A stretch of DNA of 50,162 bases from Chloroflexota bacterium (GTDB lineage Bacteria; Chloroflexota; Dehalococcoidia; DSGV01). The notes beneath the pieces were generated by a model. That model did no database searches and was not told the origin of the DNA. It saw nothing but the letters and a program-made list of their open reading frames with translations. The DNA lies in the NCBI GenBank assembly GCA_021787985.1, contig JAJYLG010000001.1, forward strand, positions 1 to 50,162. The letters are read 5' to 3'. Position 1 is the stretch's first letter. Every line of letters starts with the position of its first letter. Shown here piece after piece: positions 14,489 to 49,033 of this stretch. Position numbers and translations under genes: made by a program.

Positions 14489-14588
14489 CGTATCCCGCTG
14501 TTCTGCCCGTTCCGTGGACAAGGCCGTCGCGGTACGGTGGTTCACGAGCTGCCGCGCCGCGTGGGCGCGGCGAGGGTGGAGGCGTGCC

Positions 14589-25882: not shown

Positions 25883-27517
25883 CTACACAGCCCGAGTCCG
25901 CCCCGCCATGCCCGCGATGGCTTCGGCGAGGGCGCGCAGCTTGTGGCGCTGGATCTTGCCGGTGGCCGTCTTCGGTAGCTCGGGGACGAACTCCAGCCAA
26001 CGCGGCCGCTTGTACTCGGCGATACGCGTGCGCGCGAGCTCCCGCAGCTCGCCGCTCAGGGCGTCCGACGGACGATGGCCGTCCTGAAGCACGACGAACG
26101 CCATCGGCTTCGTCAGGCCATCCCGATCCTGGCGGCCCACGACCGCCACCTCGAGCACGGCCGGGTGCTCCAGCAGCGCGCTCTCGACCTCGGCCGGGCT
26201 GACCCAGATGCCGCCCACCTTCAGCATGTCGTCCGAGCGGCCCGCGTACCAGAAGTAGCCGTCCGCGTCCTGCCGGAACTTGTCGCCGGTGCGGAGCCAG
26301 TGCCCCACGATCGTTTCCTTGGTGCGCTCGTGCTTATTCCAGTAGTACGCGCAGGTGCTGTCGGCCCGCACCCACAGGTCGCCGACCTCACCGCGCGGCA
26401 CCTCGCGGCCGTGCTCGTCCACGACCTTCGCCTCGTAGCCAGGCACCACCAGCCCGCTGGAGCCGGGCCGCACATGGCCCGGACGGTTCGAGATGAACGT
26501 CTGCAGGGCCTCGGTGCTGCCGATGCCGTCGAGGAGCTCGACGCCGAAGCGCTCCTGGAAGCGCTCGTACAGGGCCTTCGGCAGCGCTTCGCCCGCCGAC
26601 ACGGCCAGCCGCACGCTCGACAGATCGAAATCGCGTCCGTCCTCGCGGCGATGCGCCAGCATCATGGCGTATCCCGTTGGCACCCAGAAGAAAATGGTCG
26701 GCCGGTAGCGCCCGATCTGCGCGTAGATATCGGCCGCTCCGGGCCGCTCCGGATACAGGATGGTCGTCGCGCCAACGGAGAACGGAAACGTCAGCGCGTT
26801 GCCGAGGCCGTAGGCGAAGAACAGCTTGGCAACGGAAAACGTTCGGTCGTCCTCCGTGATGCCGAGCACCCCCGCGCCGAAGAGACGCGACGTCACCACG
26901 GCGTCGTGATGCAGGTGCACCGTCCCCTTGGGGAAGCCGGTCGTGCCCGACGAGTACAGCCAGAAGGCGACGTCGTCCCGGCTCGTCGGCTCGATCTCCA
27001 ACTCCGGCGACCCGCCCGCGAGCAAGGCGTCGAAGCTGCGCGTCCCCATCGGGGCGCCATCGTCCGTGACCACGACCTCGCGCAGGTAGCGCAGCTCGTC
27101 GCTCGGGATGGCCCGCAGCAGCGGCAGCAGCGGCGCGCTGACGACAGCCACGGCCGCGCGGGAGTCGTTGAGCATGTAGGCGTAGTCGGGAGGCCTCAGC
27201 AGCGTGTTGAACGGGACCGGCACCGCGCCGATCTTGATCGCGCCGATGAAGCTGTAGACGAACGCAGGGCTGTCCAGCAGCAGGAGCGCCACCCGCTGCT
27301 CGCGCTGGACGCCGAGCGCTCGGAGCGCGCTGCCGAGGCGGTTCGATCGCTCCGCGACCTGGGCGTAAGTCACCGCCTCGTCGCCGCACAGGATGGCGAC
27401 CCGAGAGCCACGGCCCTCGGCCAGGTGCCGGTCCACCAGGTACGCCGCCAGATTGAACGCCTCGGGAATCCCCAGCTCCGCGGCAGTGACGGCGCGCTCC
27501 GGCGGACGTGTCACCAC
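25883..27517 (-). CDS. Benzoate-CoA ligase family protein (aryl/acyl-CoA synthetase)
   Basis: A 544-residue adenylate-forming enzyme that activates an aromatic or related acid with ATP and CoA. Motifs: the AMP-binding P-loop LYSSGTTGFPKGTVH at about 195-209, AYGLGNALTFPFSVGATTIL, SAGEALPKALYERF and DGIGSTEALQTFISN, which are typical of the benzoate-CoA ligase branch. The hinge (LRTGDKF, GRSDDMLKVGGIWVSP) and the catalytic lysine in LPKTATGKIQRHKLR near the C-terminus follow. The start is GTG 27517 (or GTG 27514), six bases after the phenylacetate-CoA ligase stop. It closes the 18-gene operon. Benzoyl-CoA or hydroxybenzoyl-CoA as product would feed the same pool as the Bbs-like thiolase and the hydroxybenzoyl-CoA reductase. 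Confidence 0.88.
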   Translation of the reverse strand: MVTRPPERAVTAAELGIPEAFNLAAYLVDRHLAEGRGSRVAILCGDEAVTYAQVAERSNRLGSALRALGVQREQRVALLLLDSPAFVYSFIGAIKIGAVPVPFNTLLRPPDYAYMLNDSRAAVAVVSAPLLPLLRAIPSDELRYLREVVVTDDGAPMGTRSFDALLAGGSPELEIEPTSRDDVAFWLYSSGTTGFPKGTVHLHHDAVVTSRLFGAGVLGITEDDRTFSVAKLFFAYGLGNALTFPFSVGATTILYPERPGAADIYAQIGRYRPTIFFWVPTGYAMMLAHRREDGRDFDLSSVRLAVSAGEALPKALYERFQERFGVELLDGIGSTEALQTFISNRPGHVRPGSSGLVVPGYEAKVVDEHGREVPRGEVGDLWVRADSTCAYYWNKHERTKETIVGHWLRTGDKFRQDADGYFWYAGRSDDMLKVGGIWVSPAEVESALLEHPAVLEVAVVGRQDRDGLTKPMAFVVLQDGHRPSDALSGELRELARTRIAEYKRPRWLEFVPELPKTATGKIQRHKLRALAEAIAGMAGRTRAV

Positions 27518-27523
27518 GAGCCA

Positions 27524-28900
27524 TTACCCTCCCTGAATGGCGGGGACCCCGGAGCCGCGGGCGAGGTCCCGCAGATCTTGCACGCGCAGCAGCTTACCAC
27601 CTTCGGACCGGGGAAGGCTTCCGGGCGTTGCCAGCGTCACCCGCGCGCCGACGCCGAGGGCTTCCCTCAGCGCGTGGCCGGCCCGCCCGCGCAGGGACTG
27701 AGCGAGCTGGTTGCGCTCCACGAACTCCTCGGAAAGCGTCTCGGTCCCCACGATACGGAGGAACTCGTCCGTGACCTCGACCTGGATCTCCATCTCGTCC
27801 AAGGTCCTTTCGCGCGTGACGACGACCCGGTAGTGGGGGCTGAGCTCAGGCAGGCGCCCGAGCGCCATGCCCACCTCACTTGGATAGACGTTGACGCCCC
27901 GGATGATGAGCATGTCGTCGGTGCGACCCTTCACCAGACCCATGCGCGCCAGAGTGCGCCCGCAGCGGCATGGCTCGTAGGACAGCCGGGTGATGTCTCC
28001 CGTCCAGTAGCGGACCAGCGGCAGCGCCTGTTTGGTGAGCGTTGTTATGACGAGGACGCCCTCGTTGCCCTCCGGGAGCGGCTCTCCGGTCGCCGGGTCG
28101 ACGATCTCCGGCAGGAAGTGGTCCTCGCACACGTGGGAGCCGTCGCGCGCCTCGATGCACTCGCAGGCCACGCCCGGCCCGACGATCTCCGAGAGGCCGT
28201 AGAGGTTGCAGCTACGTACTCCGAGGCAGGCGTCGACCTCCGCCCGCATGGCCGGCGTCCACGGCTCGGCGCCCAGCAGCGCGAACCGCAGGCTGATCTC
28301 GCCCGGTCGCACGCCCCGTCGCTGGAGCTCCTGCCCGAGGGTCAGCGCGTAGCTGGGCGTGCTGGCCACGACCTCGGGGCGGAAGTCGGTGATGAGGGTG
28401 ATCTGGCGTTCCGTCATGCCGCCCGATACGGGCACCACGGCCATGCCCAGCCGCTCACCGCCGTAGTGCAGACCGAGCCCGCCGGTGAAGAGGCCATAGC
28501 CGTAGGCGTTGTGCAGGATCATGCCCGGTTCTGCCCCGGCCATCGCCAGCGACCTCGCGTTGACGCGGGCGAACAAGTCGATGTCGGCGCAGGTGTAGCC
28601 CACCACGGTGGGCTTGCCTGTCGTCCCGGAGGAGGCGTGGATGCGCGTGATCTGGTTCATCGGAACGGCGAACAGACCGAAGGGGTAGTTGTCGCGCAGA
28701 TCGGACTTCCTGGTGAGCGGGAGTCGAGGGAGGTCTCTGACGCAGGACACCGACTCCGGCCGGATGCCCGCCTCGTCGAGCTTGCGACGGTAGAACGGAA
28801 CCCGGTCGTATACGTAGGACATCAGGTCGCGCAGACGCCGCGATTGGAGCGCCTGGAGCTGGTCGCGCGGCATGCTCTCGAACTCGGGCTCATAGATCAT
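27524..28900 (-). CDS. paaK: Phenylacetate-CoA ligase
   Basis: A 458-residue PaaK-family ligase that converts phenylacetate (or a hydroxylated relative) to the CoA thioester. Typical features: N-terminal LQSRRLRDLMSYVYDRVPFY, the P-loop IHASSGTTGKPTVVGYT at about 87-103, HNAYGYGLFTGGLG, NLYGLSEIVGPGVA, TGDITRLSYEPCRCGRT and GRTDDMLIIRGVNVYPSEV, with the C-terminal lysine in SEGGKLLRV. Length agrees with the family (about 430-460). The ATG at 28900 has GGAGGAG upstream. In the operon it follows the enoyl-CoA hydratase gene by 54 bases. Together with the arylpyruvate oxidoreductase (ior) genes it indicates handling of arylacetates made from aromatic amino acids. Confidence 0.93.
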   Translation of the reverse strand: MIYEPEFESMPRDQLQALQSRRLRDLMSYVYDRVPFYRRKLDEAGIRPESVSCVRDLPRLPLTRKSDLRDNYPFGLFAVPMNQITRIHASSGTTGKPTVVGYTCADIDLFARVNARSLAMAGAEPGMILHNAYGYGLFTGGLGLHYGGERLGMAVVPVSGGMTERQITLITDFRPEVVASTPSYALTLGQELQRRGVRPGEISLRFALLGAEPWTPAMRAEVDACLGVRSCNLYGLSEIVGPGVACECIEARDGSHVCEDHFLPEIVDPATGEPLPEGNEGVLVITTLTKQALPLVRYWTGDITRLSYEPCRCGRTLARMGLVKGRTDDMLIIRGVNVYPSEVGMALGRLPELSPHYRVVVTRERTLDEMEIQVEVTDEFLRIVGTETLSEEFVERNQLAQSLRGRAGHALREALGVGARVTLATPGSLPRSEGGKLLRVQDLRDLARGSGVPAIQGG

Positions 28901-28954: not shown

Positions 28955-29737
28955 CTAGCGACCGCGGTAGTTGGGCGGCCGCTTCTCCCCGAACGCCTTG
29001 CGCCCTTCGATACGGTCTTCCGTGTCGCGCAAGATGCCCCACAACTGGCTCTCCAGCAGCAAGCCGGAGCGCAGCGGCACGTTCAGACCCTCGAGCGCCG
29101 CCATCTTGGCCGCGCGGACCGCCAGCGGCCCGTTCTCGCAGATCGCCCGGGCTAGCCCACGCGCGCTCTCGATCAACTGGTCCGGCGGGCACAGGTCGCT
29201 CACCAAACCGACTCGCCAGGCCTCCCGCGCGTCGATACGTTGGCCGGTTAGCAGCATCTTCATCGCCACCGCCATCGGGACGGCGCGCGTCAGGCGCTGC
29301 GTCCCGCCTTGTCCGGGGATGCTGGCGACGCGGACCTCGCCGAAGCCGAACTGTGCCGTCTCCGACGCGATCCGCAAGTCGCACGCGAGCGCGATCTCGA
29401 GGCCACCACCGATCGCCATGCCGTTGATGGCCGCGATGGTCGGCTTCCACAGGTCAGGAGGCGGCGCGATGCGCGGGCCGCCGTCGCGGCTGAACAGCCC
29501 GACGGCGAAGCTCTCCGGCGGCGGCGGCGTCTTCTTCAGGTCGGCCCCGGCGCAGAAGAAGCGGTCGCCCGCGCCGGTGATGATCGCCACCCAGACCTCG
29601 TCGTCGCGTGCGAAGTCCTCCCAGGCCGCCGCCAGCGCATCCATCGTCTCTGGGTCAAGCGCGTTGGCCGCGTCCGGGCGGTTGAGGACCAGGGTGGCGA
29701 CGCGACCTTCCTTCTCATAGAGCAGAGAAGCGGACAT
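28955..29737 (-). CDS. Enoyl-CoA hydratase/isomerase (BbsH-like role proposed)
   Basis: A 260-residue crotonase-fold protein. The oxyanion-hole segments are ITGAGDRFFCAGADLK (about 55-70) and AAINGMAIGGGLEIALACD (about 101-119), and the catalytic region FGFGEVRVASIPGQGGTQRL keeps the glutamate and GGTQRL. The C-terminus has the expected EGRKAFGEKRPPNYRGR. It would add water across a 2-enoyl-CoA double bond. In the Bbs-like set it would hydrate a phenylitaconyl-CoA-type substrate. ATG 29737 has GGAGG upstream and lies nine bases after the thiolase stop. The family as such is certain; the specific substrate is inferred only from neighbours. Confidence 0.88.
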   Translation of the reverse strand: MSASLLYEKEGRVATLVLNRPDAANALDPETMDALAAAWEDFARDDEVWVAIITGAGDRFFCAGADLKKTPPPPESFAVGLFSRDGGPRIAPPPDLWKPTIAAINGMAIGGGLEIALACDLRIASETAQFGFGEVRVASIPGQGGTQRLTRAVPMAVAMKMLLTGQRIDAREAWRVGLVSDLCPPDQLIESARGLARAICENGPLAVRAAKMAALEGLNVPLRSGLLLESQLWGILRDTEDRIEGRKAFGEKRPPNYRGR

Positions 29738-29746
29738 CTCGGCCTC

Positions 29747-30940
29747 CTATGCCGTCAGGATCGCGATCGTGCAGGCGGCGCCTTCGATACCTGCTGCCTT
29801 GCCGCCGCGACAGTGGGCGAGCCCCGCTTTCGCCCCGTCGATCTGCCGTGGTCCGGCCTCGCCACGTAGCTGCCGCACCAGCTCCACCACCTGGGCGACC
29901 CCGGTGGCGCCGAGCGGATGCCCTTTGCCCAGCAGCCCGCCGCTCGGGTTGATCGGCAGCTTCCCGCCGATGTCGGCGTGGCCCGCTTCGACGAAACGGG
30001 GGTACTCGCCCCGCGGTACCAGGCCAAGTCCTTCCACCCGCAGCACTTCGGCGGAGCTGAAGCAGTCGTGCACCTCTGCGAAGCCGATGTCTTCCGGGCC
30101 AACGCCGGCACGCGCGTAGGCGACCTGAGCAGTGCGCCACGTCAGCGGCTCGAAGGCCATGTCCGTGAGCCCTGGCTCATAGGTGCCGCTCAGCAGCGCC
30201 ACGGCCGCCAGGCGGGTCGGCTTGCGCGCCGCCAGCGCGCGCACGGCTCGTTCGCTCATGAGCACCACGGCGGCGGCGCCGTCGCTGACAGGGCTGCACT
30301 CCATCAGCTTCAGCGGCTCAGCGATCGGTCGTGACGCCATGACCTCTTCGAGCGTCACGGCCTTCTTGAACTGCGCATAGGGGTTCAGCGATGCGTTGCG
30401 CTTGTTCTTCACGGAGACGCGCGCGAGCTGCTCGGCCGTGGTGCCGTACGTCTCCATGTGCCGCCGCGCCCGCATCGCGTAGATCGAGGGCATCGTCATG
30501 CCCTGCAGCGCCTCGAAGTCGCCTTCCTCGGGGGCGAGGGCGCCGCGGAACCGGCCCGTCAGGCACTCCACTCCCAGCGCCAGGACCACGTCGCACTCAC
30601 CCGCTCGAATGGCCAGGTAGCCCCCATGGATCGCGGTGGCGCCGCTCGAGCAGACGTTCTCGACATTGGTCACCGGGATGCCCGCCAACCCGACCTGCGC
30701 CATTACCCGCTGCCCGACGGCCATGCCCTGGTAGACGTGGCCGCAGTACGCGGCCTCGATCTTGCGTGGGTCGATCGCGGCGTCCTGCAGCGCCGCCCAT
30801 ACCGCCTCTCGCCCCAGGTCCTCTGGGGTGCGGTCGGGTTGCTTGCCGAATTGAGTCATTCCCACACCGACCACGTACACCGCCGGCGCCCCGCCCCGAT
30901 CCGCCTGCTCCGCCATCACGAACTGCTCCTGGTCGCTCAT
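29747..30940 (-). CDS. Thiolase family protein (SCP-x/BbsB type)
   Basis: A 397-residue thiolase of the type that works with a DUF35 partner. Nucleophile Cys97 sits in NVENVCSSGATAIHGG, then ALGVECLTG, FAEVHDCFSSAEVLR, and the closing GGLLGKGHPLGATGVAQ with the catalytic histidine. Such proteins include BbsB, which with BbsA cleaves benzoylsuccinyl-CoA to benzoyl-CoA and succinyl-CoA in toluene degraders. The ATG at 30940 overlaps the DUF35 stop by four bases (ATGA), strong evidence that the two proteins form a complex. Position between the DUF35/SDR genes and the hydratase gives the last step of a beta-oxidation-like chain. Substrate is not directly shown. Confidence 0.88.
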   Translation of the reverse strand: MSDQEQFVMAEQADRGGAPAVYVVGVGMTQFGKQPDRTPEDLGREAVWAALQDAAIDPRKIEAAYCGHVYQGMAVGQRVMAQVGLAGIPVTNVENVCSSGATAIHGGYLAIRAGECDVVLALGVECLTGRFRGALAPEEGDFEALQGMTMPSIYAMRARRHMETYGTTAEQLARVSVKNKRNASLNPYAQFKKAVTLEEVMASRPIAEPLKLMECSPVSDGAAAVVLMSERAVRALAARKPTRLAAVALLSGTYEPGLTDMAFEPLTWRTAQVAYARAGVGPEDIGFAEVHDCFSSAEVLRVEGLGLVPRGEYPRFVEAGHADIGGKLPINPSGGLLGKGHPLGATGVAQVVELVRQLRGEAGPRQIDGAKAGLAHCRGGKAAGIEGAACTIAILTA

Positions 30941-31374
30941 GATCCCTTTCCTGTCACGCACCGAAATCGGAATCCCAACACCTCTGGCTGGTCCGCATCC
31001 CCTTTGCGGGTAATGGCGCCGACCAGCTCCACCTCCATCCCGATGTGGGCGGCCTCCGGCGATACGTCCGCGAGCTGCGACAGCACTCGGACTCCCTCGG
31101 GCAGGTCCACGTAGGCGAGCACGTACGGAGTGGGGAACTCGGGCAGTGACTGACGCACGACCGAGAAGGTGTACACGGTCCCGCGGCGGCTGAGCGGGGC
31201 AGACAGCATCCGCTCGGGCGACAGGCAGCGCACGCAGATCTTCATCGCCGGGAAGTACGTCGTGCCGCAGCCCTCGCAGCGGCTCCCGAGCAGCGTGACG
31301 CTGCCGTCGTCCTCTTGTCGCAACAGGCCAGGAAGGAGTGGCACCCAGGTGCTCGACTCCGCGTTGACGACCAT
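30937..31374 (-). CDS. DUF35 zinc-ribbon/OB-fold protein, thiolase partner (BbsA-like)
   Basis: A 145-residue protein with an N-terminal zinc ribbon (Cys33, Cys36, Cys47, Cys50 in CEGC and CVRC) and a C-terminal OB fold (GTVYTFSVVRQSLPEF, YVLAYVDLPEGVRVLSQL). DUF35 proteins bind the thiolase and help position the CoA substrate, as described for BbsA with BbsB. ATG 31374 is chosen over TTG 31380 because GAGGTAG lies eight bases before it. Its stop overlaps the thiolase start by four bases. A near-perfect 22-base palindrome (31394-31415) lies in the 42-base gap before it. Confidence 0.9.
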   Translation of the reverse strand: MVVNAESSTWVPLLPGLLRQEDDGSVTLLGSRCEGCGTTYFPAMKICVRCLSPERMLSAPLSRRGTVYTFSVVRQSLPEFPTPYVLAYVDLPEGVRVLSQLADVSPEAAHIGMEVELVGAITRKGDADQPEVLGFRFRCVTGKGS

Positions 31375-31393
31375 CCTCAACTACCTCTTTCCG

Positions 31394-31416: not shown

Positions 31417-32172
31417 TCAGACCGCGGGGGTGGCGTACAGGCTCTTGCCGCCGCACACGTACAGGAGCTGGCCGGTGACGAACGCCGCCTCGTCGCTGGC
31501 GAAGAACAGCGCCGCCCAGGCGACGTCCTCCGGCTTACCGACGGATCCGCCCGGTTGCGCCTGCATCAGGCGCGCCTTGGTCTCCTCCGGTAGCGCCTGG
31601 AACAGCGGCGTGTCGATGAGACCGGGGGCGATGGCGTTGACGGTGATGCCGTACCTGCCCAGCTCGAGGGCAAGCGTGCGCGTCAGGCTTACGATGCCGC
31701 CCTTCGACGCCCCGTAGTTGCCCTGCCCCCACCAGCCCAGCCAGGCGCGCGACGCGATGTTCACGATGCGCCCGTGTCCCTGGTCGCGCATGTGCTTGGC
31801 CGCCTCCTGGGAGCACAGGAACTGGCTTTTCAGGTTCACCGTCAGCACGCTGTCCCAGTCGTTCTCGCTCATCTTGAACAGCGAGCGGTCCTTGGCGATG
31901 CCGACGTTGTTCACCAGGATGTCGATCCGCCCGAACGTCTCGACGGTCCTCGCGACCAGCGCCTGCACCTGCTCCGATCGCGACACGTCGGCCGCCAGGC
32001 CGTCGGCGGCGCCGCCGGCGGCGCGGATGTCCGATGCCACGCCCTCGACTCGCGCGGCGTCGATGTCGTTGATCATCACGGAGGCGCCTTCGGCGGCGAG
32101 GCGGCGCGCAATGCCTTCGCCCAGGCCACCTCCCGAGCCGGTCACCAGCGCGACGCGTCCGCGCACATTCAT
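31417..32172 (-). CDS. Short-chain dehydrogenase/reductase, catalytically complete (BbsD-like)
   Basis: A 251-residue NAD(P)-dependent SDR. The nucleotide motif TGSGGGLG is at 11-18, NNVG at 88-91, and the full catalytic set Asn113, Ser141, Tyr153, Lys157 is present (SRAWLGWWGQGNYGASK). The C-terminus ends GQLLYVCGGKSLYATPAV. It would oxidise a 3-hydroxyacyl-CoA to the 3-oxoacyl-CoA. The gene directly upstream encodes a homologous but dead SDR with a matching C-terminus, an arrangement known from BbsC/BbsD, where the two form a mixed tetramer. ATG 32172 follows GGAGCAAGCG. The unusual Trp-rich active-site loop (AWLGWWGQG) may point to a bulky substrate. Confidence 0.9.
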   Translation of the reverse strand: MNVRGRVALVTGSGGGLGEGIARRLAAEGASVMINDIDAARVEGVASDIRAAGGAADGLAADVSRSEQVQALVARTVETFGRIDILVNNVGIAKDRSLFKMSENDWDSVLTVNLKSQFLCSQEAAKHMRDQGHGRIVNIASRAWLGWWGQGNYGASKGGIVSLTRTLALELGRYGITVNAIAPGLIDTPLFQALPEETKARLMQAQPGGSVGKPEDVAWAALFFASDEAAFVTGQLLYVCGGKSLYATPAV

Positions 32173-32181
32173 CGCTTGCTC

Positions 32182-32847
32182 CTAGACCGAGAGTGATGAG
32201 TAGATGCTGACCCCACCACACACGAACAGCGTCTGGCCCGTGATGTAGGCGGACTCATCCGAAAGGAAGAACATCGCAGCATTTGCAACATCCTCCGGTG
32301 AGCCGAGGCGGCCCACGGGGTGGAGCTTCCTCAGACGTTCCCGCTCTTCCTCCGTCAACGCGGCGATCTGGCCGACGTCGACCGTGCCGGCCACCACGCA
32401 GTTCACCGTGATGCCGTCTTTGATCGCGTCCAGGGCCAGCGCCCGTGTGAGGCTAACCACGCCACCCGCCGCGGCGCCGAAGGCGACATTGCCGGGCGCC
32501 GCCAGGTACTGCCGGTCTGACAGGTTGACGATCCGCCCGAAGCGTTGCTGACGCATCGCGGGGAGGGCCGCCCGACAGGCCAGCCCTGTGCTCGTCACCA
32601 CGGCGGTCAGCGCGTCCGCCCAGTCCGCGTCGGTCAGCTCCTCTGCCCGTCCCGAGCTGCCGATGCCCGGGCAGTTGACCAGCACTCCCAGCGGCCCAAC
32701 GCTCGCGGCGCGTGCCACGACGGCCTCAGCGGTCTCCTCCGGCAGCGGTCGCACCACGGTCGCCCCGGAATGTCCCAACGTGCCGGCGATCGCCGTCGCG
32801 ACGGGACCGTGGCCGATCACCGCCGCCACGTACGTGCGCAGAGTCAT
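32182..32847 (-). CDS. Catalytically dead SDR-family protein (BbsC-like pseudo-dehydrogenase)
   Basis: A 221-residue SDR homologue that has lost the catalytic residues. Aligned with the downstream SDR, Ser141 is Asp111, Tyr153 is Phe123, Lys157 is Ala127 and Asn113 is Val. The nucleotide motif TGxxxGxG is replaced by IGHGPVAT. The rest of the fold is well kept (FGRIVNLSDRQYL, GGVVSLTRALALD, GSPEDVANAAMFFLSDESA, YITGQTLFVCGGVSIYSSLSV), so it is under selection and not a decaying gene. The ATG at 32847 has AGGAGGAG upstream; an earlier ATG at 32865 precedes that site. The likely role is as structural partner of the active SDR, as BbsC is for BbsD in benzylsuccinate oxidation. Confidence 0.85.
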   Translation of the reverse strand: MTLRTYVAAVIGHGPVATAIAGTLGHSGATVVRPLPEETAEAVVARAASVGPLGVLVNCPGIGSSGRAEELTDADWADALTAVVTSTGLACRAALPAMRQQRFGRIVNLSDRQYLAAPGNVAFGAAAGGVVSLTRALALDAIKDGITVNCVVAGTVDVGQIAALTEEERERLRKLHPVGRLGSPEDVANAAMFFLSDESAYITGQTLFVCGGVSIYSSLSV

Positions 32848-32865: not shown

Positions 32866-34053
32866 TCATGAAGCTCGTGCCGCACCCGCCGCGGCTCGCG
32901 GCCGCGCCAGGGCAGCACGGCGGATGAAGGCCTCGCCCTCCATGAGCCGGCGAGCGGTGCGCGAGTACGCGGCGCGGTCAACCTGGAAATCGCCCTCGTC
33001 CTCGACGACGCGGCTCCGTACGGGGAAGACCCCGCTCGGGTGCCCGATCCGCACGGCTTCCTGGCCCGTCTCTGGGCGCACGACCGCATGGACCACGGTT
33101 CCGCGGATGCGGGCGGCCACGCCCGTGCACACCCCCGCCGTGCCGGGAAACGCCTTGTGCAGCATGGGCGGTCGGCCTCCGACCACGCGGGCCACGAGAT
33201 CGATCGCGCTCTCGGGTACGACCTCGCCGTCCGCGAAACGTGGGTACGGGGTGGGGGGCGCGACGGCCACGGGAATAGGTGTCAGCCCATCGGTTCGCAG
33301 ACCCAGCCACGCGGCGGTTCGTGCGCGGACGGCGTCGACCTGAGCCACGTGTTCGGCGCTCAGGCTGGCGGGGCCCTCCGCGCCGGTCAGTCCCGCCGCG
33401 GCAGCGGCGAAGAACACGCACAGGTTCCCGACGTCGACTACGCTTATGTCTAGCTCTTTCCCGAGCTCAGGAATCTCGAGCTTGTCGCGCACTCGGCCCG
33501 TCGGCAGCAGCCGCCCGGTGGCGCCGCCGGCCGTCTGCCGGTAGTCGAGCAGGATCTCGGCCCCGCTTCCCGGCACGCCTTCCACCACGCAGTCACCTTC
33601 GACCCGCGGACCGCCGGCTTCGACGGGCACGTGGGCCAGCAGCACCTTTCGCGTGTTGGTGTTGTGGATGCGCACGGTCGTCAGCGGCTGCCGCGCGGGC
33701 ACGAATCCTTCCTGGACCGCGTAGGCGCCCACAGCGGCCGAGATGTTGCCGCAGTTCATGTCGTACGAGACCACCGGCTCGCTGACGCTCACCTGGGCGA
33801 ACGTGTAGTCGACGTCGGCGTCCGGCCGGCTGGAGGGGGCGATGATCGCCAGCTTGCTGGTGAGGATGTCCGCACCGCCGAGGCCGTCGATCTGCCGGGG
33901 GTCGGGGCTGCCGAACAGCGCAAGGATCTGTTGGTCGCGCAGCGCCGGGTCCGACAGGAGATCGGCCGACCGCAGAAAGAGCGCCTTGGAGGTCCCGCCG
34001 CGCATGATGACGCAGCGGATTCGGACCTGCTCGTCATGTCCGCCGGCATTCAT
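32866..34053 (-). CDS. PrpF-family isomerase (2-methylaconitate/methylitaconate isomerase type)
   Basis: A 395-residue protein of the PrpF/DUF453 family, with a diaminopimelate-epimerase-like double fold. The family start CVIMRGGTSKALFLRSADL, DGLGGADILTSKLAII (Lys67) and SYDMNCGNISAAVGAYA (Cys101) are clear; these correspond to the lysine and cysteine implicated in PrpF. Later MLHKAFPGTAGVCTGVAA is also typical. Known members move the double bond or change geometry in substituted maleate/itaconate/aconitate acids; Mii interconverts methylitaconate and dimethylmaleate. No methylcitrate-cycle genes are nearby, so a role on another itaconate-like acid is likely. The start ATG overlaps the CoA-transferase stop by four bases (ATGA). 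Confidence 0.9.
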   Translation of the reverse strand: MNAGGHDEQVRIRCVIMRGGTSKALFLRSADLLSDPALRDQQILALFGSPDPRQIDGLGGADILTSKLAIIAPSSRPDADVDYTFAQVSVSEPVVSYDMNCGNISAAVGAYAVQEGFVPARQPLTTVRIHNTNTRKVLLAHVPVEAGGPRVEGDCVVEGVPGSGAEILLDYRQTAGGATGRLLPTGRVRDKLEIPELGKELDISVVDVGNLCVFFAAAAAGLTGAEGPASLSAEHVAQVDAVRARTAAWLGLRTDGLTPIPVAVAPPTPYPRFADGEVVPESAIDLVARVVGGRPPMLHKAFPGTAGVCTGVAARIRGTVVHAVVRPETGQEAVRIGHPSGVFPVRSRVVEDEGDFQVDRAAYSRTARRLMEGEAFIRRAALARPRAAAGAARAS

Positions 34054-35291
34054 GATGTACCTCCTCTGTTGGCGACGCCGCTCCCGGTAGTGCGCCTGGC
34101 GTCCAGGGCCACGACGGTCCCTTCGCCTATCAGGGCTTCGATCTCGGCGTTGGAGTAGCCAAGCTCCGCCAGGACGGCGGCGGAGTGCTCCCCCACCTGC
34201 GGGGCCGGCTCACGAACGGATCCGGGCGTACGCTCCAGCTTGACGGGGATGCCGGCCGTCGTGGCCGCGCCGAGCGTCGGGTGTCGCAGCTCGATGACCA
34301 TCTGGTTCTCGGCGAGCTGTGGCTCGGCCACGAGCTGCTCGTAGGTCAGCAGCGGGCCGCAGATGATGTCCGCAGCCGCCAGTGCCTGGAGCCAGACGGC
34401 CGAATCCCGCTGCCGCAACGAGCGCTCCATCTCCTCGCGCAACGCTGGCCGGTTCCGCACCCGGTCCGCGTTGCTACGGAAGCGTGGGTCGTCCTCCAAT
34501 TCGGGCCGCTCGACCACGCGGCAGAGGGCGGACCAGCGCTCCGGCGTGTACGCGGCCAGCATGATGGCGCCGTCGCGGGTGCGAAACACCTCGTTGGGGG
34601 CGGAATACGGCGCCGCGCTGCCGAGCTTCTGCGGGATCTCCCCGCCGGCGAGGTACATCGCCAGCGGCACCGCCTGGAACGCCAGCAGCGCGTCGAGCAG
34701 CGCCACGCCGACGTGCTGTCCCTGTCCCGTGCGCGCGCGGGCGTGCAGGGCGAGCAAGATCCCCTGCACGGAGAGAAACGCGGCCGTCATGTCGGCGGCC
34801 GGGACGCCGACTTTGACGGGGTCCCCGTCGGCCGTCCCCGTCACGCTCATCAGGCCGCTCATTGCCTGGACGACGCCGTCGACGCCGGGCCGGTCACGCC
34901 ACGGTCCTGAGGGGCCGAAGGCCGTGATGGAGCAGTAGACCAGCCCGGGATTCTCCGCGCGCAGGGCCGCATGGCCGAGCTCCAGCCGGTCGAGGACGCC
35001 GGGCCGGAAGCTTTCCACGAGGACGTCCGCGCGGGCGGCCAGCTTGCGGACGATACGACGGCCAGCCGGGCGCTTGAGGTCGAGGGCGATGCTGCGCTTG
35101 TTCCGGTTCATGCCCAGGTAGGCGGCCGCGACGCCGTGCCAGAACGGGGGCCCGAGCCCGCGGCCCCACTCGCCCGAGCAGGGCTCCACCTTGATCACCT
35201 CCGCGCCGTGATCGCCGAGGATCATGGCGCAGGTCGGTCCTGCCGCTCCCTGCGACAGGTCCAGCACACGGACGCCGTCCAGCGCGCCCAT
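34050..35291 (-). CDS. CaiB/BaiF family (class III) CoA-transferase
   Basis: A 413-residue class III CoA-transferase that moves CoA between acids, commonly from succinyl-CoA. It has the family start LDGVRVLDLSQGAAGPTCAM, then EVIKVEP, GMNRNKRSIALDLK and SITAFGPSGPWRDRPGVDG with the catalytic Asp138, QAMSGLMSVTG, and SAPNEVFRTRDGAIMLA. In benzylsuccinate breakdown the equivalent enzyme is BbsEF (two genes); here one gene is present, so a homodimer is expected. Between tetR and prpF in one transcript, it would activate an itaconate-type acid and could be recharged with succinyl-CoA released by the thiolase. ATG 35291 is three bases from the tetR stop. Confidence 0.9.
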   Translation of the reverse strand: MGALDGVRVLDLSQGAAGPTCAMILGDHGAEVIKVEPCSGEWGRGLGPPFWHGVAAAYLGMNRNKRSIALDLKRPAGRRIVRKLAARADVLVESFRPGVLDRLELGHAALRAENPGLVYCSITAFGPSGPWRDRPGVDGVVQAMSGLMSVTGTADGDPVKVGVPAADMTAAFLSVQGILLALHARARTGQGQHVGVALLDALLAFQAVPLAMYLAGGEIPQKLGSAAPYSAPNEVFRTRDGAIMLAAYTPERWSALCRVVERPELEDDPRFRSNADRVRNRPALREEMERSLRQRDSAVWLQALAAADIICGPLLTYEQLVAEPQLAENQMVIELRHPTLGAATTAGIPVKLERTPGSVREPAPQVGEHSAAVLAELGYSNAEIEALIGEGTVVALDARRTTGSGVANRGGTS

Positions 35292-35294: not shown

Positions 35295-35903
35295 TTACCC
35301 GCCCTCCTGACCCGTGACCAGACCGCGGACGGCGAACTCGGCGAAGTCGTCCGCGATCTTCTCGGGCGGAAAGCCGCCGTCCGGGCGGTACCAGCGCACG
35401 ACCCAGTGGCACATGCCCAAGATCGCGAAGACCGCCAGCTTCACGTCGGTCGGACGGAACTCGCCCTTGGCGATGCCATCCGCCACCAGCTCGCGGAACC
35501 ACCCCTCGTAGCGGTCGCGGTGGGCGAAGAACGCGCCCCGCTGGTCGCCCGTGAGCGCGCGACCCTCCTGGATGAAGCAGGCGACGCTATCCCGGTGCTC
35601 GATGTAGGTCAGAACGTGGGTCCGAACGGCCAGCCTGAGCCGTTCGGTTGTCGGGAGATCGGCGGTTGCCACGCGCTGGAGGGCGCTGGTCAACTGGTCC
35701 ATCCCATGGTCCACCAGCTCGCCGAGCATCTGCTGCTTGCTCGGTACGTGGTGGTAGAGGCTGCTCTTGCCCAGCCCCGCGAGCTGGGCGATCTCCCGCA
35801 TGCTGGTCGCGTCAAACCCCTTCGTGCGAAACAGGTACGCCGCGGCCCGCAGCACGCGCTCCCGGCTGGTCACCTCGGCGTCGACCGCCGCGTTCCCAGT
35901 CAC
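35295..35903 (-). CDS. TetR-family transcriptional regulator
   Basis: A 202-residue repressor-type protein. The N-terminal helix-turn-helix covers about 33-52 (TSMREIAQLAGLGKSSLYHH) within a standard TetR domain starting SRERVLRAAAYLFRTKGFD; the remaining helices form the ligand pocket and resemble FadR/KstR-like C-terminal domains (VRTHVLTYIEHRDSVACF). The start is GTG 35903, overlapping the korC stop by four bases (GTGA) with AAAGGA before it; the longer frame upstream reads out of phase with korC. It is embedded in the operon and is the best candidate to bind the TGATGC-N4-GCATCA palindromes and to sense a CoA thioester, but this is inference. Confidence 0.88.
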   Translation of the reverse strand: MTGNAAVDAEVTSRERVLRAAAYLFRTKGFDATSMREIAQLAGLGKSSLYHHVPSKQQMLGELVDHGMDQLTSALQRVATADLPTTERLRLAVRTHVLTYIEHRDSVACFIQEGRALTGDQRGAFFAHRDRYEGWFRELVADGIAKGEFRPTDVKLAVFAILGMCHWVVRWYRPDGGFPPEKIADDFAEFAVRGLVTGQEGG

Positions 35904-36472
35904 CTCCGTGGTCCTTTGCCAACGGCCGTCTCGACCAAGTCGAGACCCGCCCGAAACGCCCGCAGCGAGGGTTCCGCGCTCCCACCGGGCCGGCGGGCGG
36001 CGATGGCCTGCTCGGCCGCTTCGACCGGCACTACGTGCGACAGGGCCACGAGGACCCCCAGCGCGACGACGTTGGCGCCCACGGCGGTGCCCAGCCGCTG
36101 CTTGGCGATTGCCGTGATCGGGAACGCGCACTGTTCGACATCCACGCCGCCGGGGCACGCGACGTTCTCGCTATCCACCACCACGAGTCCGCCGTGTCTG
36201 ACCTGGCGGGAGTTCCGGTCCCAGCCCTCCTGGCTGAGGGCGACCAGCGCGTCGAGCTCGCTCGGCCAGAGATAGTCGATCGGGCCGTCGCTGATGATGA
36301 CGTCCGCCTTGCTGGCCCCACCGCGTGACTCCGGGCCATAGGTCTGCGCGTGAGTCGCGTGCTTCCCTGCCAGGATGGCCGCTTCGGCGAGCAGCAGCCC
36401 GGCGAGCACGATCCCCTGCCCTCCCTTGCCGGCAAGTCTCAGCTCGTAGCGACCCGTGGCTGCCGTGCTCAT
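35900..36472 (-). CDS. korC: 2-oxoacid:ferredoxin oxidoreductase, gamma subunit (KorC-like)
   Basis: A 190-residue gamma subunit (POR_N-gamma fold) of a 2-oxoglutarate-type ferredoxin oxidoreductase. The start LRLAGKGGQGIVLAGLLLAEAA and the segment THAQTYGPESRGGASKADVIIS are diagnostic. It helps form the CoA and interdomain sites of the complex. The ATG at 36472 overlaps the korB stop by four bases. Gene order korA-korB-korC and the separate small gamma chain agree with archaeal and bacterial KorABC enzymes, which convert 2-oxoglutarate to succinyl-CoA and reduce ferredoxin. In Thauera this type of enzyme supplies electrons for benzoyl-CoA reduction; no benzoyl-CoA reductase is in this window. 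Confidence 0.88.
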   Translation of the reverse strand: MSTAATGRYELRLAGKGGQGIVLAGLLLAEAAILAGKHATHAQTYGPESRGGASKADVIISDGPIDYLWPSELDALVALSQEGWDRNSRQVRHGGLVVVDSENVACPGGVDVEQCAFPITAIAKQRLGTAVGANVVALGVLVALSHVVPVEAAEQAIAARRPGGSAEPSLRAFRAGLDLVETAVGKGPRR

Positions 36473-37332
36473 GTGGGACCCTCACCGACGGAAGCCGCGA
36501 TCAGCCGGTGCACCTGCTCGCTCAGCTCCGGCCGCGTCTCCCGATGGAGCACGCCGTACTGAAGCGCGACATCGGCAACGGCGGCGGTGTCAGCGAAACC
36601 GGGCACGAACGCCTTGTCGGCCAGCGGCGCCGCCACCCAGTCCACGTGACGCCGCTGCGCCTGCAGCATCTCGGGCCCCTCGCCCAAGCGGTTGTAGCGA
36701 CCGTAGTAGGTCGGGCAATCGCTGAGGACCTCGAGGAACGAGAAGCCCTGGTGCTGGATGCCCTGGACGATAAGCGCTTCCAGGTCGATGGGGGCGGAGC
36801 TCAGACCACGCGCGACGAAGCTGGCGCCTGCCGCTTCCAGTAGCTTGCAGGAGTCGAAGCTCGGCTCCAGGGCGCCGCCGGGGGTCGTGGCGCTGACCAT
36901 CTCGGTGGGCGTCGTCGGCGCCACCTGACCGCCCGTCATGCCGTAGATAGCGTTGTTCAGCAGCAGGCAGGTGACGTCGATGTTGCGTCGCGCGGCATGG
37001 ATGAGGTGATTGCCGCCGATGGCCAGTCCGTCGCCATCGCCCACGATCGCCAGCACCGTCAGCTCCGGCCGCGCGAGCTTGAGGCCGGTGGCGAACGGCA
37101 GCGCGCGACCGTGCGTCGTATGCAGCGTGCAGAAGTCCACGTACCCGACCATGCGGCTCGAGCACCCGATCCCACCGACCACGGCCACCTGGTCCTGCGG
37201 AAGGCCGAGGCGCCAGATGGCGCGCAGCATCGCCTGCAGCACGATGCCGTGCCCGCAGCCCGGGCAGAGGATGTGCGGCATCATGTCCAGGCGCAGATAG
37301 CGGCGATAGTCCGCGCGTGCGGCCGTATTCAT
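36469..37332 (-). CDS. korB: 2-oxoacid:ferredoxin oxidoreductase, beta subunit (KorB-like, ThDP)
   Basis: A 287-residue thiamine-diphosphate subunit. CPGCGHGIVLQAML near 20-33 and the ThDP motif GDGDGLAIGGNHLIHAARR to LLNNAIYGMTGGQ (about 97-132) are typical of KorB; GIGCSSRMVGYVDFCTLHTTHG is also conserved. There is no Fe-S cluster motif of its own beyond the CxxC that begins the protein. Start and stop overlap korA and korC by four bases each, so the three chains are coupled. The substrate could be 2-oxoglutarate or an aromatic 2-oxo acid such as phenylglyoxylate; sequence motifs favour the KorB type. Confidence 0.9.
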   Translation of the reverse strand: MNTAARADYRRYLRLDMMPHILCPGCGHGIVLQAMLRAIWRLGLPQDQVAVVGGIGCSSRMVGYVDFCTLHTTHGRALPFATGLKLARPELTVLAIVGDGDGLAIGGNHLIHAARRNIDVTCLLLNNAIYGMTGGQVAPTTPTEMVSATTPGGALEPSFDSCKLLEAAGASFVARGLSSAPIDLEALIVQGIQHQGFSFLEVLSDCPTYYGRYNRLGEGPEMLQAQRRHVDWVAAPLADKAFVPGFADTAAVADVALQYGVLHRETRPELSEQVHRLIAASVGEGPT

Positions 37333-38480
37333 CGGGAGACCTCCGCCTCGCCCGCCCTCACCTCAACGAGGCGAGCGAGGATCTCGTCGGGCGTCAGCGG
37401 CTGACCGTCGGCGCGCAGGCAGCCGAAGACGGGAGCCTGTCCGCGGGCGCAGCGCTCGACCTCGTAGACGATCTGGCCCATGTTCATCTCCGCCACGACC
37501 AGCGCTCGCGCGCTCCGTGCCAGCACGTTCACCTCGGCGTCGGGGAACGGCCAGAGGGTCCGCGGGCGGAAGAGGCCGGCGCGCAGCCCTTGCCGGCGGG
37601 CCTCGCTGACCGCGCGGCGCGCGGCGCGTGCGCTGACCCCGTAGGCCACGATCACCACCTCGGCGTCGTCAAGCTCCTCGCCCTCGTACGAGACGATCTC
37701 AGCCCGCCCGTCCTGGAGCTTGGCGTGGAGCCGTTCGTGCAGCCGGGCGATGACCCGCGGGTCCTGGGTGGGATAGCCGCGTTCGTCGTGGGCCAGCCCG
37801 GTGACGTGGTAGCGGTAGCCCGAGCCGAAATCGGCGAGTGGTGCCACTCGCTGCGCCCCGTCGCCGTAGGGCCGATACGCCTCCGTAGGGCAGTTCGGTT
37901 GCGGACGCTCGACCACGCCCAGTGACTCCAGGCTCGGCAGCTCGGCGCGCTCCCGAACGTGGCCGATGACCTCGTCGTACAGCAGGATCACCGGCGTCCG
38001 GTAGCGCTCGGACAGGTTGAACGCGCGGACCGTGAGCTCGTACACCTCGGCCACGGATGCCGGCGCCAGCACGATGATCGGGTGGTCGCCGTGCGTCCCC
38101 CAACGGGCCTGCATCACGTCCCCCTGGGATGGGCTGGTGGGCAGCCCGGTGCTCGGCCCGCCGCGCATCACGTCCACGATCACGCAAGGGATCTCCGCAA
38201 ACGCGCCGTAGCCGATATGCTCCTGCATGAGGGAGAAGCCGGGCCCGCTGGTCGCCGTCATCCCCTTCCTGCCGGCGAGCGAAGCGCCCATCACCGCCGC
38301 CAGCGAGGCCATCTCATCCTCCATCTGGATGAAGACGCCGCCGACGCGCGGGAGCATCGTGGCCATGCCCTCCATGATCTCCGAGGAGGGAGTGATCGGG
38401 TAGCCGGCGAAGAAGCGGCAGCCCGCGTCGATCGCTCCGCGCACGCAGGCTTGGTTCCCCTGGAGCAGCGTTGCCGTCAT
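37329..38480 (-). CDS. korA: 2-oxoacid:ferredoxin oxidoreductase, alpha subunit (KorA-like)
   Basis: A 383-residue alpha subunit carrying the pyrimidine-binding and CoA-side domains. It begins LLQGNQACVRGAIDAGCRFF and has the signature FAGYPITPSSEIMEGMA. EDEMASLAAVMGASLAGRKG, TATSGPGFSLMQEHIGY and GGPSTGLPTSPSQGDVMQARWGTHGD follow, all typical of KorA. The start is ATG 38480, overlapping the stop of the iorB-ferredoxin fusion gene by four bases (ATGA). A longer open frame upstream belongs to that fusion's coding region read out of phase. The usual separate KorD ferredoxin gene is missing; its equivalent is fused to IorB just upstream. Confidence 0.9.
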   Translation of the reverse strand: MTATLLQGNQACVRGAIDAGCRFFAGYPITPSSEIMEGMATMLPRVGGVFIQMEDEMASLAAVMGASLAGRKGMTATSGPGFSLMQEHIGYGAFAEIPCVIVDVMRGGPSTGLPTSPSQGDVMQARWGTHGDHPIIVLAPASVAEVYELTVRAFNLSERYRTPVILLYDEVIGHVRERAELPSLESLGVVERPQPNCPTEAYRPYGDGAQRVAPLADFGSGYRYHVTGLAHDERGYPTQDPRVIARLHERLHAKLQDGRAEIVSYEGEELDDAEVVIVAYGVSARAARRAVSEARRQGLRAGLFRPRTLWPFPDAEVNVLARSARALVVAEMNMGQIVYEVERCARGQAPVFGCLRADGQPLTPDEILARLVEVRAGEAEVSR

Positions 38481-39385
38481 CCTCGCGCCTCGCTTCCCGA
38501 GTGGTTGGCGGCGGTCAGATCGGCGGCTCGCTCTTCCGCGTCGTGCACCACGATGGCGAAATCCGGGCAGAGCAGCTCGCAGAGCCGACAGCCGGTGCAC
38601 GCGTCGGGACGCACGACCGCCACCTTGTCTGCCGCGTTGAGGGCCAGCACATGCGTGGGACAGGCGCGCACGCAGATGTCGCAGCCCTTGCACCACACCG
38701 CGATGACCTCCAGCCGCGGCGGCGCGGATTCATCTCGCCCGTGGAAGCCGTTGGCGGAGAACCTCGTGGCACCGGCATGTCGCCGAGTCTCCTCAGGGAA
38801 CGGAAGCGAGCGCCCCGCCGCAAACGCCCGCTCGTTGATGGTGACTGTCGCCGGCGGCACGTGCGACCGCAGCGCGTCCAGCCAGACCGACTCGGGGAAC
38901 GGCAGCAGCGGCGCCAGCACTCCGAGGAGCGCGCTGTTAGCGGCCTTCGGCGATCCGGCCTGGCCGGCGATCGCGAGCGCGTCGCAGACGCGCAGGTCGC
39001 CCACCTGTCGGGCCAGGGCGTCCAGCGCGACCGCCGGATAGCCGGAACGCCACGACTTGCGATCCCGGCACGCCCCGGGCGGGACCTGCCGCTGCAGATT
39101 GACGATCATGGGCGCTCCCGGCCGCAACTGCGGAAGCCATCGCAACGCCTCGTTCCACTCGAACGCGACCAGCACGTCAACCTGGCCCCGCTCGATCAGC
39201 GGCGAGTGCACCTGTCCCCCGAAACGTAAGTGCGATGTGACCACACCGCCGCGCTGTGACATGCCGTGCACTTCGCTCTGCTTCACGTCGAAACCGCAGC
39301 GCAATGCGATATCGGCCACGATGGCGCTGGCGAGCACCACTCCCTGTCCGCCGACTCCGACCAGAAGGATGCTGCCTTGCTCCAT
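38477..39385 (-). CDS. Fusion of indolepyruvate oxidoreductase beta subunit (IorB) with a 2x[4Fe-4S] ferredoxin domain
   Basis: A 302-residue two-part protein. Residues 1-190 are an IorB/gamma-type domain (ILLVGVGGQGVVLASAIVAD, SEVHGMSQRGGVVTSHLRFG, EWNEALRWLPQL). After a linker, residues 225-285 form a bacterial ferredoxin with two clusters (CKGCDICVRACP from Cys232, and CTGCRLCELLCP). In many genomes a stand-alone KorD ferredoxin precedes korA; here that ferredoxin is fused to the end of IorB, exactly at the ior/kor border. The reading frame is continuous with no stop. ATG 39385 shares a base with the iorA stop (TGATG). Confidence 0.85.
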   Translation of the reverse strand: MEQGSILLVGVGGQGVVLASAIVADIALRCGFDVKQSEVHGMSQRGGVVTSHLRFGGQVHSPLIERGQVDVLVAFEWNEALRWLPQLRPGAPMIVNLQRQVPPGACRDRKSWRSGYPAVALDALARQVGDLRVCDALAIAGQAGSPKAANSALLGVLAPLLPFPESVWLDALRSHVPPATVTINERAFAAGRSLPFPEETRRHAGATRFSANGFHGRDESAPPRLEVIAVWCKGCDICVRACPTHVLALNAADKVAVVRPDACTGCRLCELLCPDFAIVVHDAEERAADLTAANHSGSEARG

Positions 39386-41256
39386 CACCGTGCCCTGCTC
39401 CACTCCCGCACTGGCACGATCGCGTTGGCGGGGCAAACCTGCGCGCAGATGGTGCAGCCCGTGCAGCCCACCACGTCGATCTCGACCTTCGGCGCGCCCT
39501 CATAGCGCTCCTCGCTCCACGTGATCGACGGACAGCCGAGATTCATGCAGAGCTGGCAGGCGATGCATTGGTCCGCCAGCACGTGGAACGGTCGGTCGCG
39601 CACCTTGACCGGCGCCTCGACGCACGGCCGGTTGGTGATCACCACGGCAACGCCGGGGGCCGCGATCGCCCGTTCGATGGCGAGGTAGGTCGCGGCCACG
39701 TCGTACGGGTCGACGACCTGCACGAACTGCGCTCCCAGCGCCCTGCAGAGCTGCGCCAGGTCGATCTGCGGGGCCGGCTCGCCGCGGATCGTCGTGCCCG
39801 CGGCCGGGTGCGCCTGCCCGCCCGTCATCGCCGTAGTGCCGTTGTCGAGGACGAGCACCGTGATCTTCGTGTTGTGGTACGCGGCGTCGGCGAGCGCCGG
39901 CAGGCCCGCGTGGAGAAACGTCGAGTCGCCGATGGTGGCGACCACGGGGCCGGGTGCGCCGCCCGAACGGGCAAGGCCGATCGCCATGCCGATGCTCGAT
40001 CCCATGGCCACACAGGTGTCCATCGCGGACAGCGGCTCCGTCGCGGCCAGGGTGTAGCAGCCGATATCACCCGCCACGACGGCGCCGAGATGGCGCAGGG
40101 CGAGGAACGGCGTGACGTGCGGGCATCCCGGACAGAGCAGCGGTGGACGGCCGGCCACCGGCACGGAGGTCGGCGTGCCCGCCCCCGCGCAGGCGGGGGT
40201 CGCCGCTTCCGCGGGCAGAACGCCGGCCCGCTGGAAGCCGGCCCTTACCAGGTCGGGGCTCAGCTCGCCCGCCCGCGGGAAATAGGCCTTGCCCTCGACG
40301 GTCAGCCCGGCCGCGCGTAGCTCGTTCTCCAGCAGCGGCTCGAGCTCCTCGACGACCAGCAGGCGCTCGACGCCGGCGGCGAACTCGCGCAGCCGCTCCA
40401 GCGGCAGGGGGTGTGTCAGGCCGAGCTTGAGCACGCTGGCGCTCGGCAGCGCCTCTCGCACGTAGTGGTACGCGATGCCGCTCGTCACCACCCCCACCTT
40501 GCGATCGCGCCACTCCATCCGATTGAGGGCGCAGCGCTCCGCGTACGGGGTGAGCATCTCGAGCCGTTGGAGCAGCACTTCGTGACGGACGCGCGCGGCC
40601 GCCGGCAGCATCACGAACTTGTCGGGATCGCGTTCGAAGGCCGGTGTGGCGCTGGCCCGCACCGGGTCGAGCCTCACCACGCCACGCGCGTGGCAGACGC
40701 GGGTAGTGGAGCGCAGCAGCACGGGCAGATCGAAGCGCTCGCTCAGCTCAAACGCGAGGACGGTGAGCTCGCGGCACTCCTCGCTGTCAGACGGTTCGAG
40801 CAGCGGCACGCCGGCGAAGCGGGCGAACAGGCGGTTGTCCTGCTCGTTCTGCGAGCTGTGCATCCCCGGGTCGTCGGCGCTAACGACGACGAGTCCCGCC
40901 CGCGCGCCGGTATAGGCGGCGGTCATGAAGGTGTCCGAGGCCACGTTCAGTCCGACGTGCTTCATCGTGGCCAGCGCACGGGACCCGGCCAGCGCCGCGC
41001 CCAGGGCGATATCCAGCGCGACCTTCTCGTTGGTCGCCCATTCCACGTAGGTCTCGGCGCCGGGATCCATGCGCACCAGCGATTCGAGGATCTCCGTGCT
41101 GGGCGTGCCCGGGTACCCCGCCGCGACACGCACTCCCGCTTCGCGGGCGCCGCGCGCGATCGCCTCGTTGCCGGAGAGCAACGCGGTCGTGACCGGACTC
41201 TCATGCGCTGGAGCGCGAGTCGGTCGTTTCTCCACCTCTGGCCGCGACTTCGGCAT
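39385..41256 (-). CDS. iorA: Indolepyruvate/arylpyruvate:ferredoxin oxidoreductase, alpha subunit
   Basis: A 623-residue IorA, the large subunit that oxidatively decarboxylates arylpyruvates (indole-, phenyl-, 4-hydroxyphenylpyruvate) to arylacetyl-CoA with ferredoxin. Features in order: LLSGNEAIARGAREAG, VAAGYPGTPSTEILE, ATMKHVGLNVASD and DDPGMHSSQNEQDNR. The ThDP domain follows with LCPGCPHVTPFLAL and GDSTFLHAGLPALADA to LDNGTTAMTGGQAHP. The C-terminal 2x[4Fe-4S] domain has CIACQLCMNLGCP and CTGCTICAQVCP. An Ala/Thr/Pro-rich linker near residues 350-365 is encoded by a GC-rich hairpin (40182-40199). ATG 41256 overlaps the upstream LeuA-like gene by one base. Confidence 0.92.
   Translation of the reverse strand: MPKSRPEVEKRPTRAPAHESPVTTALLSGNEAIARGAREAGVRVAAGYPGTPSTEILESLVRMDPGAETYVEWATNEKVALDIALGAALAGSRALATMKHVGLNVASDTFMTAAYTGARAGLVVVSADDPGMHSSQNEQDNRLFARFAGVPLLEPSDSEECRELTVLAFELSERFDLPVLLRSTTRVCHARGVVRLDPVRASATPAFERDPDKFVMLPAAARVRHEVLLQRLEMLTPYAERCALNRMEWRDRKVGVVTSGIAYHYVREALPSASVLKLGLTHPLPLERLREFAAGVERLLVVEELEPLLENELRAAGLTVEGKAYFPRAGELSPDLVRAGFQRAGVLPAEAATPACAGAGTPTSVPVAGRPPLLCPGCPHVTPFLALRHLGAVVAGDIGCYTLAATEPLSAMDTCVAMGSSIGMAIGLARSGGAPGPVVATIGDSTFLHAGLPALADAAYHNTKITVLVLDNGTTAMTGGQAHPAAGTTIRGEPAPQIDLAQLCRALGAQFVQVVDPYDVAATYLAIERAIAAPGVAVVITNRPCVEAPVKVRDRPFHVLADQCIACQLCMNLGCPSITWSEERYEGAPKVEIDVVGCTGCTICAQVCPANAIVPVREWSRAR
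40182..40199. repeat. GC-rich inverted repeat inside the iorA linker
   Basis: CCCCCGC-GCAG-GCGGGGG: a perfect 7-bp stem with a four-base loop, lying in codons of a low-complexity linker between the two halves of IorA. Both arms with their flanks (GCCCCCGCGCAG and GCAGGCGGGGG) recur, spread by about 10 bases, in the linker of the E2 gene at roughly 12003-12035. This suggests a small dispersed palindrome that tolerates insertion in protein linkers. Confidence 0.45.
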
Positions 41257-42554: not shown

Positions 42555-42577
42555 TCCCGCTTCTCCCCGACTTGCGC

Positions 42578-49017: not shown

Positions 49018-49033
49018 CGGAAGGTAGAACGCC

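Follow-up and report, generated by a model that had tools for sequence, protein, structure and literature searches.

The window analyzed here, the whole 50,162-nucleotide stretch at the start of contig JAJYLG010000001.1 from a Chloroflexota bacterium, carries a minus-strand operon that begins at 44.4 kb and ends at 25.9 kb. Its genes are as follows, in the order in which they are read.

43120 to 44397, minus strand: dehydratase large subunit, LeuC/homoaconitase family (TIGR01343, 558 bits, over the cut-off)
42578 to 43123, minus strand: dehydratase small subunit, LeuD/DmdB family (TIGR02087, 161.9 bits, over the cut-off)
41256 to 42581, minus strand: isopropylmalate/homocitrate-synthase-like enzyme, distinct from the genome's LeuA (contig C46, 730 bits)
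38477 to 41250, minus strand: indolepyruvate ferredoxin oxidoreductase, beta-like and alpha subunits (IOR_alpha, 707.6 bits, above the cut-off of 650.9)
35900 to 38480, minus strand: second 2-oxoacid:acceptor oxidoreductase, gamma, beta, and alpha subunits (profile matches)
35295 to 35960, minus strand: TetR-family regulator, start approximate (profile match)
34050 to 35291, minus strand: family III CoA-transferase (PF02515, 1.8e-135; best NCBIfam model succinate--glutarate CoA-transferase, below its cut-off)
32866 to 34053, minus strand: PrpF-fold isomerase nearest 3-methylitaconate Delta-isomerase (3g7k, 9.6e-108, versus 5.4e-65 for PrpF)
32182 to 32847, minus strand: catalytically dead SDR, assigned as a BbsC-type chain of 221 amino acids (active-site alignment, PDB matches, tail, tree, and a model with pLDDT 89)
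31417 to 32172, minus strand: live SDR, BbsD type, with Ser-Tyr-Lys-Asn and TGxxxGxG intact (best PDB match BbsD, 7pcs_B, 9.5e-81)
30937 to 31380, minus strand: Zn-ribbon/OB-fold protein, BbsA-like (NF053627, 77 bits, curated cut-off 250; Pfam OB_ChsH2_C and zf-ChsH2)
29747 to 30943, minus strand: thiolase, BbsB-like (best PDB match benzoylsuccinyl-CoA thiolase, 7pxp, 1.2e-81; NF053628, 303 bits, cut-off 750)
28955 to 29737, minus strand: enoyl-CoA hydratase family, candidate for the BbsH role (PF00378, 5.6e-59; 52 to 56% identity to the hydratase of bbs operons)
27524 to 28900, minus strand: phenylacetate-CoA-ligase-like (PaaK-like) enzyme (TIGR02155, 589.6 bits, cut-off 646.3)
25883 to 27517, minus strand: benzoate-CoA ligase family protein (TIGR02262, 627 bits, over the cut-off)

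Next to the operon, and divergent from it, three plus-strand genes at 46097 to 50011 are nearest the alpha, beta, and gamma subunits of 4-hydroxybenzoyl-CoA reductase, below the cut-offs (alpha 841 of 995 bits, beta 271 of 405 bits). Similar-looking molybdoenzyme genes lie on the same contig as the related cluster of a phylum-mate, genome G412, which is discussed below. An oxalyl-CoA-decarboxylase-like gene at 14514 to 16241 on the plus strand (576 bits) exceeds one curated cut-off. The genome also holds further leuA- and leuC-like genes outside the operon, boxB and boxC above cut-off (the box genes serve benzoyl-CoA), and benzoyl-CoA-reductase-like genes below cut-off.

The gene of main concern here, the dead SDR, runs on the minus strand from an ATG at 32847 to a TAG at 32182 to 32184 (221 codons plus the stop), and the live SDR starts 9 nucleotides past that stop. 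Alignment with this live neighbor and with 74 unrelated SDRs that the same search had returned bears out the earlier note's reading of the active site: Ser is replaced by Asp, Tyr by Phe, Lys by Ala, and Asn by Val. Because the unrelated SDRs nearly always keep these residues (Ser in 71 of 74, Tyr in 71 of 74, and Lys in 73 of 74), their joint loss is not chance variation. The cofactor motif TGxxxGxG, which the note had called gone, is better described as degenerate, since two of its three glycines are lost and one is kept.

Loss of the catalytic residues and of the cofactor motif is what one would expect of a decaying duplicate without function, but the other properties of the gene make this extremely improbable. 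The sequence AGGAGGAG lies a few bases upstream of the ATG, a good ribosome site, as had been proposed. Against its closest relative the gene has a dN of 0.235 and a dS of 0.99, for a dN/dS of about 0.24 (Nei-Gojobori), close to the 0.21 of its live partner by the same method, and is therefore evidently maintained by purifying selection. The predicted structure has the usual SDR fold with confidence (mean pLDDT 89, pTM 0.89), and its core and conserved C-terminal tail are intact, again in line with the note; this model fits hundreds of SDRs equally well, so the fold comparison cannot say which SDR it is. Conservation of the tail, and of the pair itself in a second Chloroflexi sequence (contig L017, described below), likewise speaks against decay.

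Kinship is better addressed by sequence. In the PDB the dead SDR has its two best matches in BbsCD, one in each chain (7pcs; 1.3e-35 and 3.4e-35), with scores so nearly tied that the ranking alone cannot tell C from D. The C-terminal tail is more discriminating: S-[LM]-[ST]-[VIA], at the chain end nine residues past the last Gly-Gly, occurs in 13 of 13 C-type chains compared, drawn from bbs operons and other contexts and including that of the window, although these chains are related to one another and so do not count as independent cases. Where the chain end is complete, D-type and single chains all lack it. Two trees place C, D, and single chains apart from other SDRs at 88/80 and 92/76, values that are not starred and do not settle the matter. 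The tree for which the note had called, with BbsC and BbsD sequences and with the active-site columns left out, places the dead chain of the window, together with its relative from the Chloroflexi, with BbsC at 93/85, likewise not starred; this placement is suggestive but not conclusive, and a grouping with the C chains of two other pairs (L022 and G042, below) is not rejected (AU p 0.31).

Taken together, the PDB matches of both SDRs, the shared C-chain tail, and the tree placement uphold the proposal that the pair mirrors BbsC/BbsD. The dead SDR appears to be a BbsC-type pseudoenzyme subunit that acts with the adjacent live BbsD-type chain, a reading to which we give a probability of about 0.7 and which is also favored by BbsB being the top PDB match of the thiolase encoded nearby. 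At the protein level, the dead SDR adds a new member to the BbsC kind, which was already known.

A point against this subunit reading is that related clusters exist without a dead chain, so that the dead chain may be dispensable. In G412 and in the clusters of Cupriavidus necator N-1 and Variovorax a live BbsD-type SDR stands singly, without a dead partner, which is how matters would look if the live SDR formed a working homotetramer by itself, with the dead SDR as a regulatory or dispensable companion. We consider this rather unlikely for the window: the two genes adjoin one another both here and in L017, selection on both chains is purifying, all paired C chains keep the C-type tail, and BbsCD itself, the (alpha-hydroxybenzyl)succinyl-CoA dehydrogenase, was solved as a heterotetramer (title of PDB 7pcs). 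The same clusters undo the further claim that the dead SDR is the strongest single marker of a Bbs-like cluster, as those most similar to that of the window lack it. Conversely, the Chloroflexi metagenome contig L017 has an adjacent C/D pair (67% identity to the dead and 80% to the live chain) with no other gene of the window cluster beside it.

Comparison among C chains suggests how such a subunit may have arisen. The extent of catalytic loss differs widely: the Aromatoleum C chain has lost nearly all catalytic residues, that of Desulfosarcina widdelii is changed only at Ser and one glycine, that of NaphS2 has an intact tetrad and one changed glycine, and a Bacillota C chain (L019_C) has all catalytic residues intact. 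The tree built without the active-site columns calls for at least three changes of Ser to Asp and at least three losses of Tyr/Lys among C chains; Ser to Asp probably arose more than once or reverted. Given these repeated losses and the one fully intact C chain, the pairing of the chains and the tail probably came before the loss of catalysis.

Two other BbsCD-type SDR pairs turned up in different surroundings. One, in genome G042 (L104, 11686 to 13217), lies beside amidohydrolase and B12-mutase-like genes, and its partner chain has lost Tyr/Lys; the other (L022, 9057 to 10606) lies beside amidohydrolase, acyl-CoA dehydrogenase, and reductase-like genes, and its partner chain has lost Ser. Both probably belong to a different pathway that uses the same type of dehydrogenase.

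The presence of BbsA-, BbsB-, BbsC-, and BbsD-like genes together with a hydratase justifies calling the cluster Bbs-like in part, and might suggest, as the note implied, a true bbs operon that handles benzylsuccinate formed from toluene or a hydrocarbon like it. Gene content makes that very improbable, and we rejected it. A search for the PFL-like (glycyl radical) family PF02901 gave no match in the window's own genome, which is 95.6% complete, and hence points to no benzylsuccinate synthase. Profile searches found no BbsG-type acyl-CoA dehydrogenase in the operon (25.9 to 44.4 kb), and a single CoA-transferase gene stands where bbs operons have BbsEF. Our search, with one genome per species, did find toluene-type bbs operons (Aromatoleum, D. 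widdelii, NaphS2, and others), and each has two CoA-transferase genes; the isomerase and synthase of the window, used as queries, had no match in them, while in the window the isomerase and the synthase/dehydratase set are in place. The thiolase genes fall short of the BbsAB equivalog level (77/250 and 303/750 bits), even though BbsB is the top PDB match. Since defining features were looked for and not found, the operon is not of the bbs (benzylsuccinate) kind, although its function may resemble that of the lower half of the benzylsuccinate pathway.

Two further assignments were considered and dropped. In the auxin (iaa) pathway, IaaF acts as a dehydrogenase that converts benzylmalonyl-CoA to cinnamoyl-CoA (PMC8360864), and the operon is without an acyl-CoA dehydrogenase. 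An ordinary PrpF of the 2-methylcitrate cycle was set aside because the isomerase is far closer to 3-methylitaconate Delta-isomerase (Mii; 364 bits over 376 residues) than to PrpF (223 bits); oxalomesaconate isomerase scores 196.

These considerations lead us to propose the following scheme, in which the Bbs reactions are as described in PMC10818641. By analogy with BbsCD, the dead and live SDRs would most likely assemble into a heteromer in which the live chain alone binds NAD and oxidizes an alpha-(hydroxy-aryl/alkyl)succinyl-CoA, while the dead chain would provide tetramer interfaces and the conserved C-terminal tail. Thiolysis by the BbsA/BbsB-like proteins would then yield succinyl-CoA and an acyl-CoA, the latter probably benzoyl-CoA or a derivative substituted on the ring. 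The unsaturated succinate that feeds these steps probably comes not from benzylsuccinate synthase and an acyl-CoA dehydrogenase but from a substituted maleate by way of the methylitaconate-isomerase-like enzyme. Known 3-methylitaconate Delta-isomerase interconverts 3-methylitaconate and dimethylmaleate; here the double bond would be shifted to turn an aryl-maleate into an arylidene-succinate, such as benzylidenesuccinate, which would then receive CoA from the CoA-transferase and be hydrated. The maleate in turn could arise from an aryl 2-oxo acid (an aryl pyruvate), which the isopropylmalate-synthase-like enzyme would condense with acetyl-CoA to 2-benzylmalate for dehydration by the LeuCD-like enzymes. 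We infer this entry route from gene content and from the carbon balance (C9 + C2 = C11 = C7 + C4), and regard amino-acid-derived aryl keto acids as a tentative source of the Bbs-type intermediate, at somewhat less than even odds. The part from isomerase to thiolase may serve more generally, as a module that handles substituted itaconates and maleates.

Related clusters bear on this entry route in both directions. The operon of G412 is almost the same but has a single SDR, a live one (identities to the window: synthase 60%, IOR alpha 60%, POR 57 to 59%, CoA-transferase 57%, hydratase 42%, live SDR 60%, BbsA 48%, BbsB 68%, isomerase 58%, and PaaK 69%); LeuCD-like genes are absent from the part of G412 that was read. 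Plasmids of C. necator N-1, Variovorax (including V. paradoxus and Variovorax SRS16), and Roseomonas cluster the isomerase, CoA-transferase, hydratase, SDR, OB-fold, and thiolase genes, and several of these clusters have tricarboxylate-transporter binding proteins and no synthase. Homologues of the isomerase at 46 to 51% identity occur in eleven other Chloroflexota genomes, with no BbsA/BbsB-like or BbsD-like genes beside them in the neighborhoods read. A search of 400 Chloroflexota genomes found relatives of the synthase, at E values of 1e-75 or better, in 28, one of which is the window's own; these relatives often have LeuC, LeuD, and LeuB-like genes as neighbors, and in some Chloroflexota such a relative is the only clear LeuA homologue. 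Because the family is found in these settings, an aryl substrate for the synthase is not established, and this is the chief doubt about the route.

An alternative, competing with the entry route only and leaving the subunit reading untouched, is that the synthase and LeuCD homologues lengthen keto acids apart from the Bbs genes, while alkyl-/aryl-itaconates or maleates are imported and broken down by the products of the isomerase, CoA-transferase, and Bbs genes. The company that the synthase family keeps in other Chloroflexota and in a Streptomyces natural-product cluster fits this view, as do the proteobacterial clusters with their transporter binding proteins. We nonetheless think it somewhat unlikely, as the synthase and the Bbs genes share an operon in two genomes of different families (the window and G412), and no LeuB-like gene was seen in the stretch read in either of them.

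The Streptomyces case is the plasmid of Streptomyces sp. KN37 (L170). An NRPS/PKS cluster there, which includes two crotonyl-CoA carboxylase/reductase genes, contains a 46% homologue of the synthase along with aconitase-like and isopropylmalate-dehydrogenase-like genes; these are likely a cassette that lengthens a keto acid for a natural product. At three loci in other Chloroflexota (L161, L162, and L167) the same synthase family occurs with indolepyruvate oxidoreductase genes, and the first two of these also have genes resembling benzoyl-CoA reductase or its activase.

What is novel here is the proposed entry route, the subunit family being already known; a literature search, with most subscription papers outside its reach, found no description of the route. 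If true, the route would be a new entry to the benzoyl-CoA pathway. Degradation of alkyl-/aryl-itaconates, compounds that some fungi make, would then be a candidate role for the isomerase-CoA-transferase-hydratase-SDR-thiolase module. The results also extend the family of BbsCD pseudoenzymes to settings other than toluene degradation, and they suggest that the dead chain is defined by its conserved tail and its pairing, the catalytic residues having been lost several times. A chain marked in this way has a role that is directly testable.

Several known systems resemble parts of the proposed scheme. Its first two reactions are the same as those of Phe/Tyr homologation, where HphA is the 2-benzylmalate synthase, with Ala73 in place of Leu/His as a selectivity residue (on a strand that aligned ambiguously with the window's enzyme), and HphCD is the dehydratase, both reactions being known (PMC12961565). 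The window likewise has isopropylmalate-synthase-like and LeuCD-like enzymes but no LeuB-like (HphB) gene in the operon, and its maleate would go to the isomerase instead. That isomerase has 3-methylitaconate Delta-isomerase (3g7k) as its best PDB match by 140 bits, although the substrate proposed for it is bulkier. As in BbsAB (7pxp), an OB-fold/Zn-ribbon gene is followed by a thiolase gene, and BbsB is the top PDB match of the thiolase, while the window pair scores far below the NCBIfam equivalog cut-offs. The differences from BbsCD (7pcs) are that the window's dead chain is 42% identical to that of BbsCD over the aligned part, that Tyr/Lys are replaced by Phe/Ala rather than by Val/Arg, and that the gene order is C, D, A, B without a benzylsuccinate synthase. 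In both systems, however, a dead SDR stands beside a live one, the dead chain has exchanged Ser for Asp and ends in the same C-terminal tail, and BbsCD is the top PDB match of both window chains.
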